DNA of 64,000 bases from Branchiostoma floridae (lineage: Eukaryota; Chordata; Leptocardii; Amphioxiformes; Branchiostomatidae), in assembly GCF_000003815.2 (NCBI RefSeq), contig NC_049983.1, positions 17,328,746-17,392,745 on the forward strand, read 5' to 3'. Position 1 is the first letter of the stretch. Each line of letters opens with the position of its first letter. Shown in pieces: positions 15,992 to 63,520 of this stretch. Position numbers and translations under genes: made by a program. Below the pieces are notes generated by a model. It saw nothing but the letters and a program-made list of their open reading frames with translations, was not told the origin of the DNA and made no database searches.

Positions 15992-18900
15992 TTACTCTTG
16001 ATCTGCTTTGATCGCTGGGAGTTCTCCGGTCCTGTGCAGGAACAGTGTGCTGTTAAATCCGATTCCATAGCTTCTCAGTGTTAGGTCATCACGGAGCGCC
16101 TTTCCACCGAACACCAATGACGTTTCCACATCTGTGAATGGGCAAGGACGTTATATAAGGCACTTGGAAGAGGCAATTGTAATTTTAACATTGTATGCCA
16201 CGTTACATTTGTATATCATAAAATTTAAACGTTGTGCCAATGGCAACCTTTCATGCCAGAATCGCACCATTTGAAACCAGCTTGATTTTTTTGGTCAATG
16301 AAATTATTCTAATCACATGTAAAGAAATTGATATTTTGGGTACCGCACACGCGCTGTTTTAAAATGCTACTTGCCGGCTATATAATGGCAAGTTACCTGT
16401 GTTCATCCTACGGCAGTATTTTTCTTTCAACGAAGCCACGGACTCGTCAAGGCGGACATCATCGATCGTGACCGTTCTTGGACTTTCCGATTCCCGCCTG
16501 ATAAAAACCTGGAATCGGTATCGATGCATGGAAATTTTATTAGTTAGAGAGCTCATGTCTGCCCATGCACGTGAGAGCTTAATATTCAGCCGTAAACATA
16601 TATTGAGTACCTTGTTGATTTGGTGCATTAGAAGTAAAAAAGCTCGTTTTGCCACAAGGTGTAGAATAAGGCAGTAAAATGTATTTGTCAATGCCAATCA
16701 ATGATCATCTAGAACATTACTTCAAGCTGTCATCACATATTTGTATGGGGTACAATACGTTATTTTGCTTAGTAATCATCATCATGTGATTACACCATGT
16801 ACACATATCATTGCAATACAGATTATATTCTACAGTTTCTCTATTGTCTCACCTGATGCCCTCTAGAACAACCCTTCTTGTTTTTGACGTCTTCACATCG
16901 GCCCCGCAAGTGTTGTACGTCACAAGCATGACCACAAGAAAGTTTCCTTTCGCAAACTTTGATAGCTACAAAAAGAGGAAAGGAAATCACGGTACCCCAC
17001 TATGATGATGTACGCAGAGCCTAAAGATCAGCCTTCGTTCGTTCATAAAATACGAGGGGCGTTCAATAAGTAATAACTCTGACTCATTTTCCATAGCAGG
17101 AGATTAATGAAACTTGGCACAGTTATTAGTCTTTCTCTTCATAGAAACCACCCAGAGTTATGCATTTCTCCCATTGTTTGATGCAGCTCTGGACACCGTT
17201 TTTGTAGGACACCCCAGGTTTGTCCTCCAACAGATGCCTCATCAATGGCAGAAGAGGAACGACCAGGTCTGGGAGCTGTTTCCACAGACTTCCGGCCATG
17301 TTTGAATTCAGGATGCCAGCGTTTTACAAGGTCATATGATGGGGCATCATCACCATAAGTTTCTTTCATTTCATCAAAAGTCTCCTTTGGTGTGCGTCCT
17401 TTCAAATACAAAAACCGGATCACTGCGCGACACTCAACTAGCCCCATTTCACACCTGGTCCATTTCACAACTAACTCAGTTTAAACACCATTAAATCAGA
17501 AACTACAATTAGGTCAGAGCTCTTTTTTGCAGCATAAACTATAGAGATATGAATCATTACACATGCATCTAGATCAGACAACTGAAAGTGGGTCAGAGTT
17601 ATTACTTATTGAACGCCCCTCGTACATCGGATTCAAACGCCAACAACTTGCCGAACAGTCCAATCAAAACAAGTTAGTTGGCATCGGCATGTTGTTATAG
17701 ATGTTTAATACGCATAGCTTTACCCATAAATTTTACTACTAATCTTAAGATATACTAACTTAAAAGCTCATCCGTGTTGTTGCTAGGACGTTTACATGTG
17801 TGTGAAATTAAAATTGTTCAATCGACAAGAAAAAGTTTGATTCGACGAAACGAAATTGACCGGTCTTATGTTAACTTCGGGTTGCAAACTGCAAATAGAT
17901 GAATAAAAATGTTATCCCGGAAACCTGACGGAGCCCCTACTGATGAATATTCCAAAGATATTCTACGGCCTAAAGCTAGTCCAATTCCTTACCTCCACGG
18001 ACCGATCCCACGTGTACTGTAGGCACCTGGGTGGATGGATCAAAGGTAAGTGGAGGCAACTCTTCATGATCAGGAACTTGCTCCCCTCCGAGGACGCTAA
18101 GTCGTTCCTCGGTTTCAGAACCAACTACCGTGACCTCATAGTCACTCCCATACGACCCCAGCTTCTCTGCAAAGTCCACAGCACTTGTGTAGTGAGCAAG
18201 AGTGGTGCCAACGTCATCTTCTTCTGATGACAAAAGCTTTTGTCTGAGTGCTGCAATTTTCCTGTGTTCCGCCAGGAGAGCCTCTTTACGTTTGTCTATT
18301 TCCGAAATTATACTTTCCTTCAGCCTTGAGGCTGTATCGACGATCTTAAGGTTTATACTTTCTTCAGTCTGTTTTTCTTTCTCGAGTTGATTCTGCAGCT
18401 GAGAGCGTATTGCTCGACAGTCGTCAGCTTTTGCCTTTACCTGGTCGATCTTATTTTGCAATTTTGCCCTAACCGATGGGCTATGGTCCTTCAGGTGAGT
18501 GAAAGCATGCTCTCTGTGTTTGAGCAGTGCACAGTCGCGACACATGGGTATCTGACATGTGTCACAGAAGAATTTGACCACCTCGTCCGGGTGTTCACTG
18601 CAGGGTTGTCCCTGTACGTGTCGCACACTTAACGCTTGCCCCTCTCCCCTTAGCTCATCCAGTCCCAACACCGTATGGTCTCTTGTCACTTTGATACGCA
18701 AATGAGCCAATACACACTCGGCACACAACAGTTCGTCACAGTTAAGACATCGCGAAGTAGCTTGACCTTTTGAGTCACAATAAGGGTTGCTACACACGAT
18801 TTCTGGTCCTTCTGACTCCAACGTCTTGTGAAGGTTAACGGTATCCTTCAAACTTTCGACGAAGAAGTTGTTCTTGAGTCCGTCAACGGTCCCACCCGGA

Positions 18901-19094
18901 AGTGGTGACTTACTTCTACAGGTTGGACACTCTATTTGGTCGCCATCGACGCAGTGGGCTTTGGCATATTCAGCCAGACATCCCTTGCCAAAAGTATGCA
19001 GACACGGAAGTATTTTAGGTTCACGGAAGGATTGCAGGCATATCTGACACTCGAGAAAGTCGTTAGAAATTTCCTTCAGAATTGAGGTCGCCAT
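15992..19094 (-). CDS. TRIM-like protein with Cys-rich CGHxC segment and C-terminal ubiquitin-like domain
   Basis: Exons on the minus strand: 17993-19094, 16853-16965, 16397-16508 and 15992-16131. Junction phases 1, 0 and 1 match exactly, giving 488 aa. Exon 1 has a RING (C16, C19, C31, H33, C39, C56, C59), two B-boxes (about 101-145 and 165-200) and a coiled coil (about 205-310). Position 36, normally the fifth zinc Cys, is Gly. Exon 2 encodes a 38-residue Cys/His-rich piece with KLSCGHAC, reminiscent of NFX1-type fingers. Exons 3-4 encode a ubiquitin-like fold: TVTIDDVRLDESVASLKEKY, then LVFGGKALRDDLTL and a YGI..STL.L ending. No C-terminal GG follows, so it is not a conjugatable modifier. 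TRIM proteins are usually E3 ligases in innate immunity or signalling; activity here is uncertain. A mariner derivative lies in intron 1. Exon 1 is certain; linkage to exons 2-4 rests on splice sites and phase. Confidence 0.8.
17051..17624 (-). mobile_element. Mariner-like element, internally deleted (copy 1)
   Basis: Terminal inverted repeats begin TACGAGGGGCGTTCAATAAG and end with the complement ending CCCCTCGTA; a TA occurs at both ends, as expected for Tc1/mariner. At about 574 bp it is less than half a full mariner. It lies in intron 1 of the TRIM-like gene, in which its transposase strand is the sense strand. Confidence 0.88.
17139..17468 (-). pseudogene. Mariner transposase remnant
   Basis: The open 109-codon frame reads ECRAVIRFLYLKGRTPKETF and VKRWHPEFKHGRKSVETAPR, the N-terminal helix-turn-helix region of mariner transposases, then jumps to CPELHQTMGEMHNSGWFL-like C-terminal sequence. 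The catalytic DDD/DDE core is deleted, so it cannot transpose itself. Confidence 0.85.
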
Positions 19095-20279: not shown

Positions 20280-21390
20280 TTGATATATATATATATATTT
20301 GTCTTAATCGTTTGAGATGTATATTTGTCTTAATCGTTTGAGGTATATATTTGTCTTAATCGTTTGAGATATATATGTGTCTTAATCGTTTGAGATATAT
20401 AGTTGTCTTAATCGTTTGAGAAACTCATACTGTATTTACTGGTGATCATGACTGGATTAATCATGTTAAAGACATTCTCAATTACCATGGCTTTGGACAT
20501 ATATGGATGAAACCTGAGTCGTATAAACTAGATTACATTGCCGACCAACTTCGCTACCGTCTACAAGATACATTTATACAGGAGTGGTTTGCTCGCATAA
20601 AAAGCAATTCAAAACTGTCTTTTCTTAACAAATCGAAAAAGTGTTATGAACAAGAGACATACCTTTATGATATATATAACTTTGAAATTCGTAAAGCGAT
20701 AACCCAGAATCAGCAGTCATAAATTGAACATAGAAACAGGCAGGTATCATAATGTAGCGCCTGACCAAAGGTTTTGCCCATTCTGTCCAAAGCAAATTGA
20801 AGATGAATTTCACTTTGTCATGATGTGCAGTAGGTACAATGTTTCACGTAATGAGTTATTCACATTCCTCGAATCAAATACAACAGATTTTAAGAGACTC
20901 AATGATACAGACAGATTTGATTATATATTCGGATGTAATAACTCCCACAATGCTAAAATAGGCAAATATATAAAAGACTGCTTTATCATAAGAAAAAATG
21001 CCGAAACTCATAATTAGCCCCACTCGATTGTAATACAATATCAATGATTTAGGCTAGCTCTTATTGTTCTAGAAATTAGGATGCCAATTATTTTATTCTA
21101 TATTCATAATCTGCATATGTACTAAGGTTGATACTCGTTTTAGTAATAAGGATGATAAGTTTGTTTCTTCTTTTTGTTTGCCATACATTGTACCGTGTAC
21201 GATCGTTGCGCAATAAAGTTCTTCTATATTTGTCTTAATCGTTTGAGATATATATTTGTCTTAATCGTTTGAGATATATATTTGTCTTAATCGTTTGAGA
21301 AATTTATATATTCGTCTTTATCGTTTGAGATATATATTTAATCGTTTGAGAAATTTATATATTTGTCTTTATCGTTTGAGATACATATTT
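20280..21390 (+). repeat. ~26-bp minisatellite split by a LINE insertion
   Basis: The unit TTTGTCTTAATCGTTTGAGA followed by TATATA repeats about five times at 20280-20421 and about six times at 21226-21390. The intervening 20428-21225 is a truncated LINE, so the array was one tract before insertion. Confidence 0.85.
20428..21225 (+). mobile_element. 5'-truncated L2/CR1-like LINE (copy 1)
   Basis: Encodes the C-terminal part of a LINE ORF2 in two frames (20507-20722 and 20724-21017) separated by a small lesion at KAITQ. The downstream frame has a CPFC..H....C zinc-knuckle-like motif and NSHNAKIGKYIKDCF. The 3' end reads CAATAAAGTTCTTCT. The same sequence occurs at 50.9-51.9 kb and 53.7-54.7 kb. 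Confidence 0.85.
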
Positions 21391-21391
21391 G

Positions 21392-22430
21392 TCCTTCAGA
21401 TGAGTGAACAAATGTCGAATGCTCTCTCAGTGCGCAGTCGCGACACATGGGTACCTGGCACGTTTTACAGAAAAATATGACGACCTCGTCCGAAAGTGTT
21501 CACCGCAGGTGTGTCATTAATTGGCCTTGTACGTCACACTTTGATACAGAAATGGCTGCTTAACACACCCGTCATATCAGCCTTGTCAAAACAAGCCGGC
21601 TGGCGGCCGGAACCGCCGCCTACTTGCATTTTTCAGCCGGTTACATATGTCTAAAATTTCAAAAAATAAAAGCAGGGTTCTCTCCAGAGGACGGACAAAG
21701 AATGCTTCTAGCTCAGTGCCGTTATACTGCATTCCGAATTTATTATGTTTCTTCCCTATTTCGGTGGATCATTTAGCTAAAAATTCATGATAATACGCAG
21801 TTTTTTGGGCCGAGCGGTGTCACTTTTCCCGTCGGCAAACTTTTGTATGAGCGATCTTCGGAAAACAATGCACCGATGCTACAAAGGAATACTGGAGCAT
21901 ACGGCCCCTCAAGTGATTTAAAATCCTATAATTCTCATGTAAAAAACAATCATTGTCTTTGCTAACTTCGTGACCACAATCCTCGTGTCAGAATATAGGT
22001 TTATTAGGAGCTAGTACACGTATGTGAAAATCCAGGCTTACCGACATGTGGCCGCCGCAAGATTGGGAACATTTTCTTCAAAATCGGCAACAGCAATAAA
22101 ATGACTGGTTCCTTGTAGCACTACTACAAATAAAAATATCGTGTGCAATTTTGTATAGCCTTTGGTGTGGGTCTTAAGCCTCAAAACCGCTAAAATTATG
22201 TTAAGAAATTTGCTCAGGTGACTCTGGAGCAACGCCTTATTACGATATTGTAGGGCATTGACGCGAGAGTCAACCTTGTGTGGGTGGGAGGCTGTCGTGA
22301 AGTAGCAATTAAGACCTTTTTGAGCCCCAATATTAAATGGTTGCTGCAGGCGTTTTCTTGTGAATGCTAACGGCTTGTAAAGGTTAACGGCATCCTTCAA
22401 ACATTCGACGAAGAAGACATTAAACATTCA
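21392..22430 (-). pseudogene. TRIM-like pseudogene fragments (1)
   Basis: 21392-21560 matches the B-box 2 segment of the TRIM-like gene (TGCGCAGTCGCGACACATGG is shared closely), with indels. 22375-22430 matches the segment after the RING and encodes FFVECLKDAVNLYK on the minus strand. About 800 bp of unrelated DNA separates them. No continuous frame remains. Confidence 0.75.
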
Positions 22431-31874: not shown

Positions 31875-32905
31875 TTTGAGCAGTGCGCCGCATTCGCGAC
31901 AAATCTTATATATTTGATGAGGACAAGTTTGGGGATTGTGTCTGACTTGGTACTTTGAGTCGATTTCTTCCCCTTATGAACGACTAGTGAAGGCAGCATT
32001 TTGACCGCTTTCTTCCTAAAAACACTGAACTACGAGGGGCATTCAATAAGTAATGTCCCTGACCCACTGCCAGTTGTCTGATCTAGATGAAATGTTGCAT
32101 GTGTAATGAGTCATATCTCTATGGGTTATGTTGCAAAAAACAGCTCTGAACTAATTGTGGTTACTGATTTACTGGTGTTTGAACTGAGTCAGGTGCGAAA
32201 TGGACCAGGTGTGAAATGGAGCAAGTTGAGTGTCGCGCAGTGATCCGGTTTTTGTATTTGAAAGGACGCACACCAAAAGGGACTTTTGATGAAATGAAAA
32301 AAACTTATGGTGATGATGCCCCATCATATGACCTTGTAAAACGCTGGCATCCTGAATTCAAGACCTGGTCGTCCCTCTTCTGCCATTGATGAGGCATCTG
32401 TCGGAGGACCAACCTGGGATGTCCTACAAGAACGGTGTCCAGAGCTACATCAAATGATGGTAGAAATTCATAACTCTGGGTGGTTCCTATGTAGAAAAAG
32501 ACTAATAACTGTGCCAAGTTTCATTAATCTCCTGCTATGGGAAATGGGTCAGGGACATTACTTATTGAATGCCCCTCGTAACATGACATTTTGAGTGGCA
32601 AACGGAGTTGCTATATATATATACACATATATAACCAATTTATAAAAATTTATACAAATATATATATATAACCAATTTCCTCAGGCTCCTAAATTGCAAC
32701 GACCGGAAAAGGTTGACGGTTTTCCTTCAAAATTTCAACGAAGAAGTTGTCATTGAGTCCGTCAACGTTAACGGTCAGACACGGAATTCACGGGTGACTT
32801 GCTTCCACACATTAGGGACTCTATCTTTAGTCACCATTGACACAGTGGACATTTGTGTCTTCAGCCAGACGTCCTTTCCGAAAACACATGGAAGAAGTTG
32901 GGACT
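31875..32905 (-). pseudogene. TRIM-like pseudogene fragments (2), split by a mariner derivative
   Basis: 32697-32905 resembles the RING and post-RING part of the TRIM-like exon 1 (GAGTCCGTCAACG and TCTTCAGCCAGACGTCCTTT shared), and 31878-31915 resembles the B-box 2 part. Between them lies mariner copy 2. Frames are broken throughout. The position of the missing fifth RING Cys is again a Gly codon here. Confidence 0.7.
32031..32580 (+). mobile_element. Mariner-like element, internally deleted (copy 2)
   Basis: Same family as 17051-17624, with termini TACGAGGGGCATTCAATAAG and the complement ending CCCCTCGTA, about 550 bp. A frame at 32216-32389 encodes the transposase N-terminus (ECRAVIRFLYLKGRTPKGTF) and ends early after a frame-shifting deletion where copy 1 has HGRKSVETAPR. 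Confidence 0.87.
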
Positions 32906-40240: not shown

Positions 40241-42749
40241 TTACCACAGATCATTCATCATCCTTCGCATCTTGCGGAAAGCCCTTTTCATGGCTTTGCG
40301 GTAGACGTCGTTGCGGTAGGCGTAGACGAGGGAATCCGAAAAGGTGGAGGTCTGCATGATGATGTAGGTGATGTCTCCCCAGATGGGGGCGGAATGAGCG
40401 CTGATGCCTCCAAACNNNNNNNNNNNNNNNNNNNNNNNNNNNNNNNNNNNNNNNNNNNNNNNNNNNNNNNNNNNNNNNNNNNNNNNNNNNNNNNNNNNNN
40501 NNNNNNNNNNNNNNNTCGCATCACCAGAATGATCAGCGGAACCCACGAGGCCCACTGGACTCCGACAACGATCCCGAAGGTCTTGGCAGCTTTGAGCTTC
40601 TTCGGCAGTTGGTCAGCCTGGGCCGCCCAAGCCCGTTTCGTGTCGTGTTTCTTCTCGTTGTCCCATGCCACCTTGGAGATGAGGCCGGCAATGCAGCACA
40701 CAATGATCTGCCCGAGACCGCACAGGAACGTGGTGACGGTGCTCTCCGTGCCGCCGGGTGTGCACGGCAACAGCAGGCTCACGGGCACCGCGATGTCGGC
40801 AGCAGCCACGTCAAGCGCCCAGGTGGACACGCGCCCGACCCGTGCGATCCCGACCAGAGGCGGCACCAGGGCGACGAAGAAGCAGGCGGCCATGCCGAGA
40901 GCGAGTCGGCTGCTTGCCAGGTGCTTGGCGAAGTGGTAGGGAAACGCGATGTGCACCCAGCGGCAGAACAGCAGCCCCGCCTGCAGGTAGATGGTCAGGC
41001 AGGACAGGAAAGAGACGAGGAAAGCCTGGATCCTGCACCCGAGCCAGCCGGGAGACACGCCGTGCAACAGGCTGTGTATGGCACTTGGTGAGAACATCAG
41101 GCACTGGGCAATGTCGCAGAGGGCGAGGGCACACAGGAAAATGTTTCCCGGTTCCTGAAAGCGGTTTGTTGCTGGTAAATCAAAGTTTTAAAAAAGCTTC
41201 CTTTTTTGGCCGGAATTTATGATATACTGTACCACATCATTTGTTTAATACATGCACATTCAAATGAGGGGTTGAAATTCAAAACTAGTTTCTTCCTTTT
41301 CCTTTCATAATTAATATGTCGTTTCAATCAATATTAGAAATGAAACCGTAATGGAGAGGGACAATTTGTACCCCGACATTCTTGCTGCAAACACTAAAAC
41401 CTTATCATATATAGATAGATAGATATATAGATAGATAGATAGATATATAACCTAGAGACCACGTCTAGCAAAATAATAGACGTTAAATGAGGACAACAAC
41501 AACAACAACAACAACCTTTCAATTAGACCTAGTTCTTATATGCAAAAACATACGCTTTTCAATTATGACCGGCCGTTAGTTGTCAATTAATAAAACACAT
41601 TTAAAAGTAAAATAGCAACCATTCTCTTCTCATATCAAAACATTTGATTGTCAACGGCGGCAGACTCTGAGGAATTGGCCCTTGACTGTACTGTACTACA
41701 CCAGAGAACATATTTCAAAAGACTCGATGCTACATACATTTATATTTCGATGTCAGAACTCGCATAATGCAAAAATAGGCAAATATATCAAGGGCTGCTT
41801 TGCTATTAGAAAGAATACTGAAGCTAATGTTTAGCTTTCTTCATTCTGATACTAAAATGTATTTGAATATGTTAACTAGGATGCTAAGCTTTATCCTATA
41901 CCCCTATTTTGTACCTAATGTAATAGTTGTTGCCATACTTTGTACCATGTACAATTGTCGTGCGATAAAGTTCTTCTTTCACTAGACAGCAATTGCGCTG
42001 CGAACTCGCTGCGACCTAAATTGGATGTGTGTAGCCATTGACTTCATAACTGGAATGTCATGCGAAAGGTATGATTTCATAACTGGATTGTCATGCGAAA
42101 GGTGAAAGTATGACTGAAAAGAAAACAATGCATACAAACCGTAAAAGGGTTCGTGTTTATCAATGAACTTTGTTAAGAGCTCTGTCAAATTCTATGCCCA
42201 ATCACTGTAGTTTACACCCTAATTTGAAAGTCTCCGCGCGATTGCCGTCTAGCAGAGTGGTGGTATGGTTGACAAAGTCAGCCACAAGACATAAAAAAGC
42301 AAAGACTATGACACACCCACCTGCATGTCCTTGTCTGTCATGACGACGCCTATCAGGCAGCCGTTGCCGAAGAGTGTCCAGAGCAGGAAGCCGATGAGGA
42401 CGAGGATCAGAAGATACTTAATAGGCGGGTAGAGGCCGTACAGACCACAGTTGACTGGGTTGTAGCTCACCACTTCCTCGGTTGTGTTTCCGCTGATTGT
42501 GACGTTGGTGAATGTGAACTCGCACATGCCGACATCGCCTATGGACTTTACAAGGCTGCTGACTCCTTCTGCTGTGATGTTAGTCACGTTCTTGGCGAGG
42601 TCATAGGTCACGTTTACATGACGTGTCACAAAGTGATTGAGAATACCCCCGGCAAGTTGTTCTGTGACGTTTGCGACTTTTGTAAAAGCGCCCGCCATGG
42701 CAGACGTCAGCTTTGTGACGGCTTCAGGTGAGATGATGGGAAGCCTCAT
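40241..42749 (-). CDS. Class-A-like seven-helix GPCR, orphan, interrupted by an assembly gap
   Basis: Exon 1 (42321-42749) encodes 143 aa: an extracellular N-terminus with six N-glycosylation sequons (N27, N46, N54, N57, N82, N88), then helix 1 with FGNG (N129 as the conserved helix-1 Asn). Exon 2 (40241-41154) joins in phase 0 and supplies helix 2 (LALCD, D157), helix 3 with GCRIQ and FCRW in place of DRY, helices 4-5, a basic third loop, WASWVP for helix 6, and after the gap a helix 7 with DSLVY in place of NPxxY, then a basic tail ending MMNDLW. An in-frame TGA lies just before the chosen Met. The 100-N gap hides the end of helix 6 and loop 3, and the two sides are in different frames, so the true gap is not 100 bp. 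Ligand and subfamily are unknown. Confidence 0.83.
40416..40515. other. Assembly gap (100 N) inside GPCR exon 2
   Basis: Exactly 100 N. The frame differs on each side, which implies a nominal gap length rather than a pseudogene. Confidence 0.99.
41403..41447. repeat. (GATA)n microsatellite
   Basis: ATAGATAGATAGATA tract in the GPCR intron. Confidence 0.9.
41690..41978 (+). mobile_element. LINE 3' end fragment
   Basis: Encodes NAKIGKYIKGCFAIRKNTEA-like text as in the larger LINE copies, stops at the same place, and ends GCGATAAAGTTCTTCT. Within the GPCR intron. Confidence 0.8.
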
Positions 42750-50900: not shown

Positions 50901-51940
50901 AAGAAGAACTTTATTGCGCAACGATCGTACACGGTACAATGTATGGCAAAAAAAAAAGAAGAAACAAACTTATCATCCTTATTACTAAAACAAGTATCAA
51001 CCTTAGTACATATGCAGATTATGAATATAGAATAAAATAATTGGCATCCTGATTTCTAGAACAATAAGAGCTAGCTTAAATCATTGATATTGTATTACAA
51101 TCGAGTGGGGCTAATTATGAGTTTCGGCATTTTTTCTTATGACAAAGCAGTCTTTTATATATTTGCCTATTTTAGCATTGTGGGAGTTATTACATCTGAA
51201 TATATAATCAAATCTGTCTGTATCATTGAGTCTCTTAAAATCTGTTGTATTTGATTCGAGGAATGTGAATAACTCATTACGTGAAACATTGTACCTACTG
51301 CACATCATGACAAAGTGACATTCATCTTCAATTTGCTTTGGACAGAATGGGCAAAACCTTTGGTCAGGCGCTACATTATGATACCTGCCTGTTTCTATGT
51401 TCAATTTATGACTGCTGATTCTTAACTGGGTTATCGCTTTACGAATTTCAAAGTTATATATATCATAAAGGTATGTCTCTTGTTCATAACACTTTTTCGA
51501 TTTGTTAAGAAAAGACAGTTTTGAATTGCTTTTTATGCGAGCAAACCACTCCTGTATAAATGTATCTTGTAGACGGTAGCGAAGTTGGTCGGCAATGTAA
51601 TCTAGTTTATACGACTCAGGTTTCACCCATATATGTCCAAAGCCATGGTAATTGAGAATGTCTTTAACATGATTAATCCAGTCATGATCACCAGTAAATA
51701 CAGTATTGTATGCATCGCGAAGCAGAGAGTCCTCAGGTAAGTTTACCAAACGGTGCCAGTATTTAATGAGCTGAATTTTAGCAGAAATCATAATAGGAAA
51801 AGTTCCTAATTCTCCTCGAACGCCGTCATTAGATGATTTGGAGTGGATTCCAAGTAGAAATTTTTGAAAGCGTATATCAATTATGTCAAATTCCGGTATG
51901 ACTGTTGGGAGGCGTGTGTTACATGTGCGATGGTTTGTTG
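50901..51940 (-). mobile_element. 5'-truncated L2/CR1-like LINE (copy 2)
   Basis: The minus-strand frame 51111-51956 (281 codons, first residues in flanking DNA) is uninterrupted and encodes the ORF2 C-terminus: IQLIKYWHRLVNLPEDSLLR, then CPFCPKQIEDECHFVMMC and NSHNAKIGKYIKDCF. The 3' UTR ends CAATAAAGTTCTTCT on the minus strand. It is the best preserved of the copies but has no polymerase domain. Confidence 0.87.
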
Positions 51941-53659: not shown

Positions 53660-54720
53660 AAGAGGTATAGGATAAAGCTTAACATCATAGTTAACATAAC
53701 AATAAGGGCTAATATGCATAATTCATTCATATAGTATCATAATGAAGTAGGGTAATCATTGGCTTCAGTATTCTTTTTAATAGCAAAGCAGTCCTTGATA
53801 TATTTGCCTATTTTTGCATTATGGGAGTTCTGACATCTAAATAAATGTGCAAATCTGTCTGTAGCATCGAGTCTTTTGAAATATGTTATACTTGCTTCGA
53901 GAAACGTAAATAATTCATTGCGTAAACTAGCGTATGTAGAACATTCCATTATAAAATGAGATTCATCTTCAATATGATTTGGGCAGAATGGACAGAACCT
54001 TTGGTCAGGGGCTACATTGTAGTATCTGCCTGTTTCAACATTCAACTTATGGCTACTAATTCTTAACTGAGTTACTGCTTTGCGAATCTCAAAGTTATCT
54101 ATATTATAAAGGTACATTTCTTGTTCATAACATTCTTTTGATTTGCTAAGAAAAGATAGTTTTGAATTGTTTTCAATAGAACTAAACCACTCCTGTATGT
54201 ATATATCTTGTAGCCTGGTGCGCAGTTGGTTAGCAATATAATCTGTTTTATAAGCCTCAGGTTTCGCCCATATTTGCCCAAGGCCGTGGTAACAGAGAAT
54301 GTCCTTAACATGATTAATCCAGTCTTGATTATCAGTAAATACATGTTGTATGCATCGCGAAGTAGCGAGTCCTCAGGTAAGTTTACCAAACGGTGCCAGT
54401 ATTTAATGAGCTGAATTCTAGCAGATATTATAAAGGGAAAAGTTCCTAACTCTCCTCTCACGCCGTCGTTAGATGATTTTGAGTGGACTCCGAGTAGAGA
54501 TTTTTGAAAACGTGTGTCAAGTATGTCAAATTCCGGTATATCTAAAGGGAGGCGTGTGTTATCGATTGAAAAGCCATCTTTTTCTAGATTAAGCACAGAC
54601 GCACATTTTAGAAACTTGTCTTTGTCTGATCTTCTTTCAAAATTCATATGAGTCTGAAGATCCACGACTGAACATGTATCTATATAATCTGCAAACCTAT
54701 GTCCGTAAGGTACAGAATTG
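53660..54720 (-). mobile_element. 5'-truncated L2/CR1-like LINE (copy 3), frameshifted
   Basis: Frames 54099-54665 and 53737-54117 together cover the same C-terminal region as copy 2, extending slightly further 5'. Reading is lost after LLRDAYN (an indel relative to copy 2). HFIMEC and NSHNAKIGKYIKDCF mark the end. Confidence 0.85.
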
Positions 54721-62120: not shown

Positions 62121-62261
62121 ATTTTAATGCATTTTTAACAAATGTTTATGTCATATACCCCAATTCAGCCAAGTATGGCTGCAATGGTATGTATAAGTAA
62201 ACTTCTTTGTTGCAAATGAACCAGTCATTAAGTCATTCATAACCTTATTAACGCTTGCTTG

Positions 62262-63520
62262 TTCTTTACAGTGTTCTTTGCAGTGGACAGAGAACTCCGG
62301 GAACAGCAAGCTGGCTTTCGACCCAAACGATCCTGCGCTGAACAAATCTTCACTCTAAGACGCATTATAGAAAAGTGCAATGAACTTCAGACCCCACTCG
62401 CTATCAGCTACATTGATTTTACTAAGGCATTTGATTCCATTCATCGGCCCTCATTGCGGAACATTATGCAGATGTATGGATTGCCTCCCAAGTTGATATC
62501 TGCAATCAAGGGGATTTATGCCAACTCAAGATGCTGTGTAAGGACCAGTGATGGGTACAGTGACTGGTTTGAGGTTAAGCAACGGGGGTACGTCAAGGAT
62601 GTGTGCTATCACCCATTCTCTTTGCCCTCGCCATTGACTGGGTCCTATCCAAGGCAACAGACAGAAAGGGTATACAGTGGGTACAAGAACAGAAACTGTC
62701 GGATCTGGATTTTGCAGTTGACATCGCCGCCCTAACAGAAACCACCCAAGAGCTCCAGCCGTTAGTAAGCGACATAGGCTCCTCAGCAGCTAGTATTGGC
62801 CTTGAGATCAGTACAAAAAAGACCAAGAACATGCTGTCAGGACCCCACCCACCGACAACAGCTGTATTCATCGATCAGTATGAAGTAGAAGTGGTTGAGA
62901 ATTTCACTTACCTTGGAAGTTCCATAAACAACAACGGGGAAATAGATAAAGAATTGGACTGTAGGATTGGAAAGGCCTCAGCAGCATTTAACCAACTAGG
63001 AAAGATCTGGAGGTGTAAGAAACTTTCTATTAAGATAAAACTACGCTTTTACAATAGCAACGTCCTGTCCACACTCCTCTACGGCTCTGAATCATGGAAT
63101 TTGAAAACCAGCCATGAGAAGAACCTTGACGCCTTCGACAGCAAGTGTGTGAGGAGGATCTTGGGGATCAAATGGAGTGACTTTGTCTCAAACAAAGACG
63201 TAAGAGCACAAACAAGACAACAGCCAGTGTCATCAATCATATGTAAACGACGGTTAAGCTGGCTAGGACATGTGGAACGACTCCCACCCGAGGGATTTGC
63301 TCACCAAGTTCTTCAGTGGAAACCTCAAGGTCGGAGAAAGAGGGGACGTCCTAAGATGAACTGGCAGCAGACAGTTGACAGAGATCTCCTGCCAGTGGGC
63401 AAGAGATGGAAAGATGTGTGGAGACTGGCTGTAGACAGAGCGGGCTGGAACCTTCTAACTGCCTCATGCGTCACACGACGTGGGAGCCACTAAGTAAGTC
63501 TAAGTCTAAGTAAGTTCTTT
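62262..63520 (+). mobile_element. RTE-like LINE, defective reverse transcriptase
   Basis: Frame 1 (62262-62590) reads REQQAGFRPKRSCAEQIFTL and ISYIDFTKAFDSIHR. After a 2-base excess near 62585 the frame shifts to 62603-63493 with LSPILFALAIDWV, YLGSSINNNGEIDKE, LLYGSESW and RRKRGRPKMNWQQTVDRDLL. The catalytic FADD box is FAVD (first Asp to Val), so the polymerase is dead. The tail has repeated AAGTCTAAGT units. The 5' part with the endonuclease is missing. Confidence 0.88.

Follow-up and report, generated by a model that had tools for sequence, protein, structure and literature searches.

A subfamily of TRIM genes in Branchiostoma floridae with a predicted C-terminal Cys/His finger and ubiquitin-like domain

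Results

Gene structure in the window

The window, a stretch of 64,000 nucleotides of Branchiostoma floridae contig NC_049983.1, carries on its minus strand (19094-15992) a gene whose four exons form a single open frame of 488 amino acids. All four exons have GT-AG borders, and the introns lie in phases 1, 0 and 1. This splice model had been proposed in a first-pass annotation of the same DNA, and all of its coordinates, borders and phases were reproduced. The gene comprises the following features, listed in the direction of transcription:

17993-19094, minus strand: exon 1, 1102 nt, codons 1-367 plus one base, encoding the RING, B-box 1, B-box 2 and the probable coiled coil
18918-19049, minus strand: RING finger, residues 16-59 (Pfam, with the ligands numbered by eye)
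18987-18989, minus strand: codon 36, GGC (Gly), at which the fifth RING zinc ligand is lost; TGC (Cys) in both paralogs on contig C9
18498-18779, minus strand: B-box 1 and B-box 2, residues about 106-199 (Pfam PF22586 and PF00643)
17994-18482, minus strand: probable coiled coil and linker, residues 205-367, assigned from position and the charged, helical-looking sequence
17051-17624, no strand assigned: element in intron 1, 574 bp, with 41-nt terminal inverted repeats that are 95% complementary and TA at both ends
16853-16965, minus strand: exon 2, 113 nt, coding for a Cys/His finger that has a single CGH unit
16397-16508, minus strand: exon 3, 112 nt, N-terminal half of the ubiquitin-like domain
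15992-16131, minus strand: exon 4, 140 nt including the stop, C-terminal half of the ubiquitin-like domain and a tail without Gly-Gly

Pfam searches with the window protein returned the B-box model PF00643 in two stretches (44.1 bits, cut-off 24.1) and, also above the curated cut-offs, the B-box-like model PF22586 and the RING models PF13445, PF00097 and PF13639. The ubiquitin-like domain (Ubl) had previously been called by motif; residues 415-476 scored 44.2 bits with the ubiquitin model PF00240 (cut-off 25.4). The Cys/His exon with a CGH motif described earlier was recovered as exon 2 and is common to the C9 paralogs. Very probably, a single gene encodes all of these parts, from the RING and both B-boxes through the probable coiled coil to the finger and the Ubl.

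Elsewhere in the window, the repeats 20427-21225 and 50902-51706 are 98% identical and inverted, and 53698-54561 is related to them. A dispersed repeat at 62232-63493 contains open frames resembling reverse transcriptase by eye, and a long open frame at 40288-41187 (minus strand), which includes a masked run, looks like a seven-helix receptor by eye.

Paralogs on contig C9 share the complete exon structure

The genome searched was the 513-Mb assembly of 431 contigs. With the finger-Ubl part as query and E up to 1, eight matches were obtained, namely the three window exons, four on contig C9 and a weak one on C165. When exon 1 served as query, the best matches after the window itself were two C9 loci at 72 and 71% identity, followed by the next best at 44%, and both C9 loci adjoin the finger-Ubl matches on that contig. 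The C9 pair is arranged head to head (a plus gene and a minus gene), their start codons being separated by 1,088 bases. Each gene consists of an exon 1 of exactly 1102 nt, a finger exon and two Ubl exons, again with GT-AG borders and phases 1, 0 and 1, and the Pfam ubiquitin scores of the two proteins are 50.1 and 37.8 bits (cut-off 25.4). In all three proteins Pfam places a RING near the N-terminus and B-boxes after it, as in TRIM (RBCC) proteins.

The join between exon 1 and the tail spans a transposon-containing intron and had earlier only been inferred. An alternative is that two separate transcription units are present: a one-exon TRIM that stops in intron 1 and a small finger-Ubl gene downstream. 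A stop soon after the exon-1 donor (GKELD), the transposon-like element within intron 1 and the location of the other TRIM matches of the genome on one long open frame would all suit this arrangement. However, the donor, acceptors and phases are identical at three loci on two contigs, the read-through tails past the exon-1 donor differ in all three genes, and none of the three has an in-frame ATG between the preceding stop and exon 2. We regard the join as real because the C9 pair shares exons, borders and phases, the tails differ and exon 2 lacks an ATG of its own; two units at this locus are highly improbable. Thus, splicing of exon 1 to the finger-Ubl tail is established, at the level of genomic sequence, by comparison of the three loci. 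As an example of the architecture the window gene has the proposed build but is not the best one, since the C9 paralogs keep the RING ligand and a part of the finger that are lost here.

The intron-1 element, which we take to be mariner-like, has a second copy in the window at 32031-32580 that is 86% identical over its length and adjoins a TRIM relic. A search of the 20 kb surrounding the C9 pair recovered no copy, the only matches there being two of 13 bases (E 0.40).

At least three TRIM-Ubl genes form a separate group

At an E of 0.001 or below, the exon-1 TRIM search yielded 112 match rows, with 111 of 498 candidates scored. The best 30 loci among these rows, including the window gene and its two C9 sisters, were used for tree construction. 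In the midpoint-rooted tree, a long stem with 100/100 support separates the three TRIM-Ubl genes from the remaining 27 loci. By sequence, in both the exon-1 search and the tree, they group with TRIMs.

Further TRIM-Ubl fusions were sought by pairing the 112 TRIM rows with the 43 rows of an exon-by-exon ubiquitin scan, on the same strand and less than 60 kb apart. Only the plus C9 gene, C7 and C146 (53 kb apart) gave such pairs. On C7, ubiquitin follows two TRIMs at 8.6 and 13.5 kb; this ubiquitin is near-canonical and has an ATG of its own downstream of a splice acceptor, so the case is no fusion. This screen, which yielded no additional fusion, is a weak test: because the reading is exon by exon, the scan detects the plus C9 gene alone among the three known genes and misses the window gene and the minus C9 gene, and the TRIM rows derive from the 111 scored candidates out of 498. 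Tail searches of the genome revealed no fourth close relative. Since the scan detected only one of three known genes, three is a lower bound, and the subfamily is predicted to have at least three members in this genome. Separately, six ubiquitin-like matches lie on one strand of contig C9 within 92 kb (7830532-7922295), possibly a cluster of Ubl genes.

The ubiquitin-like domain lacks a conjugation end

Compared with the PDB, the last 121 residues matched polyubiquitin chains best, followed by ISG15, UBL4A, FAT10 and engineered ubiquitins (best 60 of 335 matches). Relative to the genome's own ubiquitin, the three Ubls keep F4, K27, V for I44, F45, G47, K48, Y59 and T66. L8 is replaced by E or Q in the three genes, beside an insertion, and H68 by F. 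V70 reads as H, H or N in a gap-free reading by eye, whereas the program alignment has a gap or Ala at this position. The Ubl of the minus C9 gene has a very short end and stops at about ubiquitin position 71.

A terminal Gly-Gly, as found in conjugated modifiers, is present in none of the three Ubls. Because it is missing, the predicted proteins cannot be conjugated through their own ends. Recruitment of the proteasome or of UBA proteins, which the first-pass annotation had put forward as a role of the Ubl, is uncertain; the usual hydrophobic patch is changed at L8 and V70, and such docking is therefore not to be assumed.

A TRIM on contig C4 appears to end in a similar finger without the Ubl

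An NF-X1-type finger was suspected for the CGH exon, but a Pfam search of the finger with a maximum E of 10, at which the HMMER filters still discard most matches above about 0.1, gave no zf-NF-X1 match, and no PDB match was obtained either. The two Pfam matches returned, DAGAT and Crisp, were below their cut-offs and were taken as chance. No family name is therefore given to the finger here.

When the plus C9 tail was compared with the genome, eight rows represented the gene itself, its sister and the window gene, 11 were ubiquitin rows, and one match was located on C4. The latter (10672527-10672643) aligned to the plus C9 finger with 46% identity over 37 residues at an E of 0.157, which is not significant by score; the support for it comes from its surroundings and from the reverse comparison. 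In the reverse search with the C4 finger and E up to 1, the only other matches were the two C9 fingers (E 0.11 and 0.12). The C4 locus, at about 10672452-10682934 on the minus strand, is a multi-exon TRIM in which the finger is the last coding stretch; in a partial gene model, RING/B-box 1, B-box 2 and coiled-coil-like stretches occupy separate upstream exons of the same strand. Just before the finger lies a phase-1 border, as in the three TRIM-Ubl genes (by eye). The C4 gene has no Ubl, and its frame stops 27 residues past the second CGH. Its first exon is 40.7-42.0% identical to those of the three TRIM-Ubl genes and 33-43% identical to those of the other 27 TRIM loci.

The C4 TRIM seems to resemble the three genes in its CGH finger end but differs from them in the missing Ubl and in a front half split over several exons. 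Comparison of the genes is compatible both with common descent of these finger-ended TRIMs and with independent gains of the finger. As the C4 TRIM seems, by a weak match, to end in a similar finger without a Ubl, the Ubl may have been added to a finger-ended TRIM. The CGH finger of the C4 gene, which has no Pfam name, is possibly another undescribed TRIM C-terminus.

Excess of synonymous change in exon 1 and the Ubl, with losses in the window copy

Rates were estimated as dN/dS by NG86, with Fisher tests on rounded counts. Between the window gene and the plus C9 gene, exon 1 gave a dS of 1.01, a dN of 0.166 and a dN/dS of 0.16 (p 6.7e-35), and the Ubl a dN/dS of 0.23 (p 1e-6). The corresponding ratios against the minus C9 gene were 0.18 for exon 1 and 0.34 for the Ubl (Ubl p 0.00045). 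Exon 2 was saturated in dS between the window gene and its paralogs. Synonymous change is thus in excess in exon 1 and the Ubl of the window-paralog pairs. Between the plus and minus C9 genes, dN/dS was 0.27 in exon 1 and 0.47 in the Ubl; taken alone, the Ubl comparison of these two youngest copies (p 0.057) does not establish constraint on the domain. Their whole tail gave p 0.0016 (Fisher).

In the window copy the RING ligand positions read C16, C19, C31, H33, G36, C39, C56 and C59 (by eye). Cys occupies the fifth ligand position in 29 of the 30 TRIM loci, the window copy being the only exception, and both C9 genes possess the full ligand set. A Cys at residue 48, missing from both C9 paralogs, might substitute for the lost ligand, and the Gly36 codon could also be a polymorphism or an assembly error. 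Furthermore, exon 2 of the window gene has no second CGH unit and falls 69 nt (23 codons) short of its length in both paralogs. Since the C4 relative, if it truly is one, has both CGH units, loss in the window copy appears the simpler reading.

These losses raise the question of whether the window copy is a decaying pseudogene and the C9 pair alone represents the working architecture. Several features point in this direction: a RING ligand is missing, exon 2 has lost 69 nt, intron 1 harbours the element, and remnants of additional TRIM exon sequence lie between 21391 and 32884. Conversely, the 488-amino-acid frame is fully open and all splice sites are intact at an exon-1 dS of about 1. In addition, dN/dS is low in the RING (0.09 against the plus and 0.13 against the minus gene) and in the B-box region (0.09 against each), values that span the time both before and after the losses. 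We consider decay of the window gene rather unlikely, though less so than the other alternatives weighed here. The relics themselves, on the minus strand at 32884-32709, 22416-22295 and 21515-21391, show 71-78% DNA identity. Stops occur in 21391-21515 and a frameshift in 32709-32884. They lie in order along the strand, yet codons 77-88 are found in two of them, possibly reflecting two relics.

Discussion

Known C-terminal classes of TRIM proteins include SPRY, NHL, FN3, filamin, MATH, PHD-bromo and bromodomain. C-terminal to residue 205, PF00240 was the sole Pfam match above cut-off in the three proteins, and no known TRIM C-terminal class was detected. The earlier remark that no standard TRIM class is known to end in a Ubl is supported by two TRIM surveys (PMC3503706, PMC3137616), which list none in the portions available. 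Likewise, among the matches listed, titles and abstract openings of the open-licence literature contained no TRIM with a C-terminal Ubl.

Like other members of the TRIM (RBCC) family, which has many copies in this genome, the three genes encode the RING, both B-boxes and the probable coiled coil within a single exon; as C-terminus they carry a finger and a Ubl instead. A foreign C-terminal domain has likewise been gained by the two-MATH TRIMs of Branchiostoma floridae, although this is MATH rather than Ubl and no finger is mentioned in the available text; these MATH domains are described as most similar to those of ubiquitin proteases (PMC3503706). In zebrafish, TRIMs whose C-termini have been swapped (chromodomain, RanBD/cyclophilin) also acquired a domain by exon gain, but the domains are others and the background is B30.2 (PMC3137616, from the part available).

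In the pseudoligases TRIM6, 15, 22 and most likely 51, it is the dimer or the E2-ubiquitin interface that has diverged according to the accessible text (PMC11992055), whereas the window protein has lost a zinc ligand and is predicted to be inactive. The window copy resembles these proteins, as they are portrayed there, in combining a predicted inactive RING with close paralogs that are likely active. Because of the lost RING zinc ligand we read the window gene as most likely encoding a pseudoligase, and the C9 pair, with full RING ligands, would be working ligases.

The layout of such proteins may be approached through TRIM72, which, as reported in the part of the study available (PMC10643145), forms an antiparallel coiled-coil dimer with the C-terminal domains at the middle and the B-boxes at the ends. 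If the coiled coil of the TRIM-Ubl proteins forms the usual antiparallel dimer, the finger-Ubl units would be placed where other TRIMs have SPRY or NHL. Two such units at the dimer middle would form a paired surface on which ubiquitin-pathway or immune adaptor proteins could dock, and the Ubl would serve as a permanent, non-conjugatable docking or mimicry module that is not attached to substrates. The window protein would keep dimerisation and Ubl docking and would modulate, or compete with, its ligase-proficient C9 sisters. A precedent for contact between such relatives is the pseudoligase TRIM51, which is reported to bind its ligase-proficient relative TRIM49 (PMC11992055, in the text available). 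A finger-Ubl TRIM subfamily with a docking Ubl and a pseudoligase in the window is our best explanation overall, and we would give it an even chance of being correct as a whole; the docking and pseudoligase mechanism taken by itself is tentative and somewhat less assured.

A different role would be cis action of the Ubl, either on the RING, as proposed previously, or on the E2. Such action is known from parkin and UHRF1; RBBP6 is, like UHRF1, a further RING-type ligase with a Ubl, and in these ligases, as in RBCK1/HOIL, the Ubl is N-terminal. That parkin and RBCK1/HOIL are ligases with an integral Ubl, though not TRIMs, lends this idea some plausibility (PMC3503706, as far as the available text goes). 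It is not favoured by the TRIM72 layout, in which the C-terminal domains sit mid coiled coil (PMC10643145, in the part available), nor by the probably defective window RING and the failure to keep L8 and V70 of the Ubl. We thus deem cis action unlikely and prefer docking.

In a stronger form of the docking model, the TRIM scaffold would carry an irremovable ubiquitin mimic whose paired Ubl faces recruit ubiquitin readers without a ligase step, with the ligase-dead window sister tuning the competent C9 sisters. This form is speculative and improbable; if true, it would amount to a signalling platform that bypasses ubiquitin conjugation.

Many novel combinations of immune domains have been described in amphioxus, in a paper whose main text, in the portion available, does not contain the word TRIM (PMC2575513). 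The TRIM-Ubl genes may have an immune role. The finger-Ubl end would add a TRIM C-terminus that is not listed in the available parts of the two surveys (PMC3503706, PMC3137616), in a lineage that is reported to shuffle immune domains heavily (PMC2575513, same portion). With two genes that have intact RING ligands and one that does not, the subfamily offers a natural set in which to ask whether a built-in Ubl may replace or tune ubiquitin transfer.
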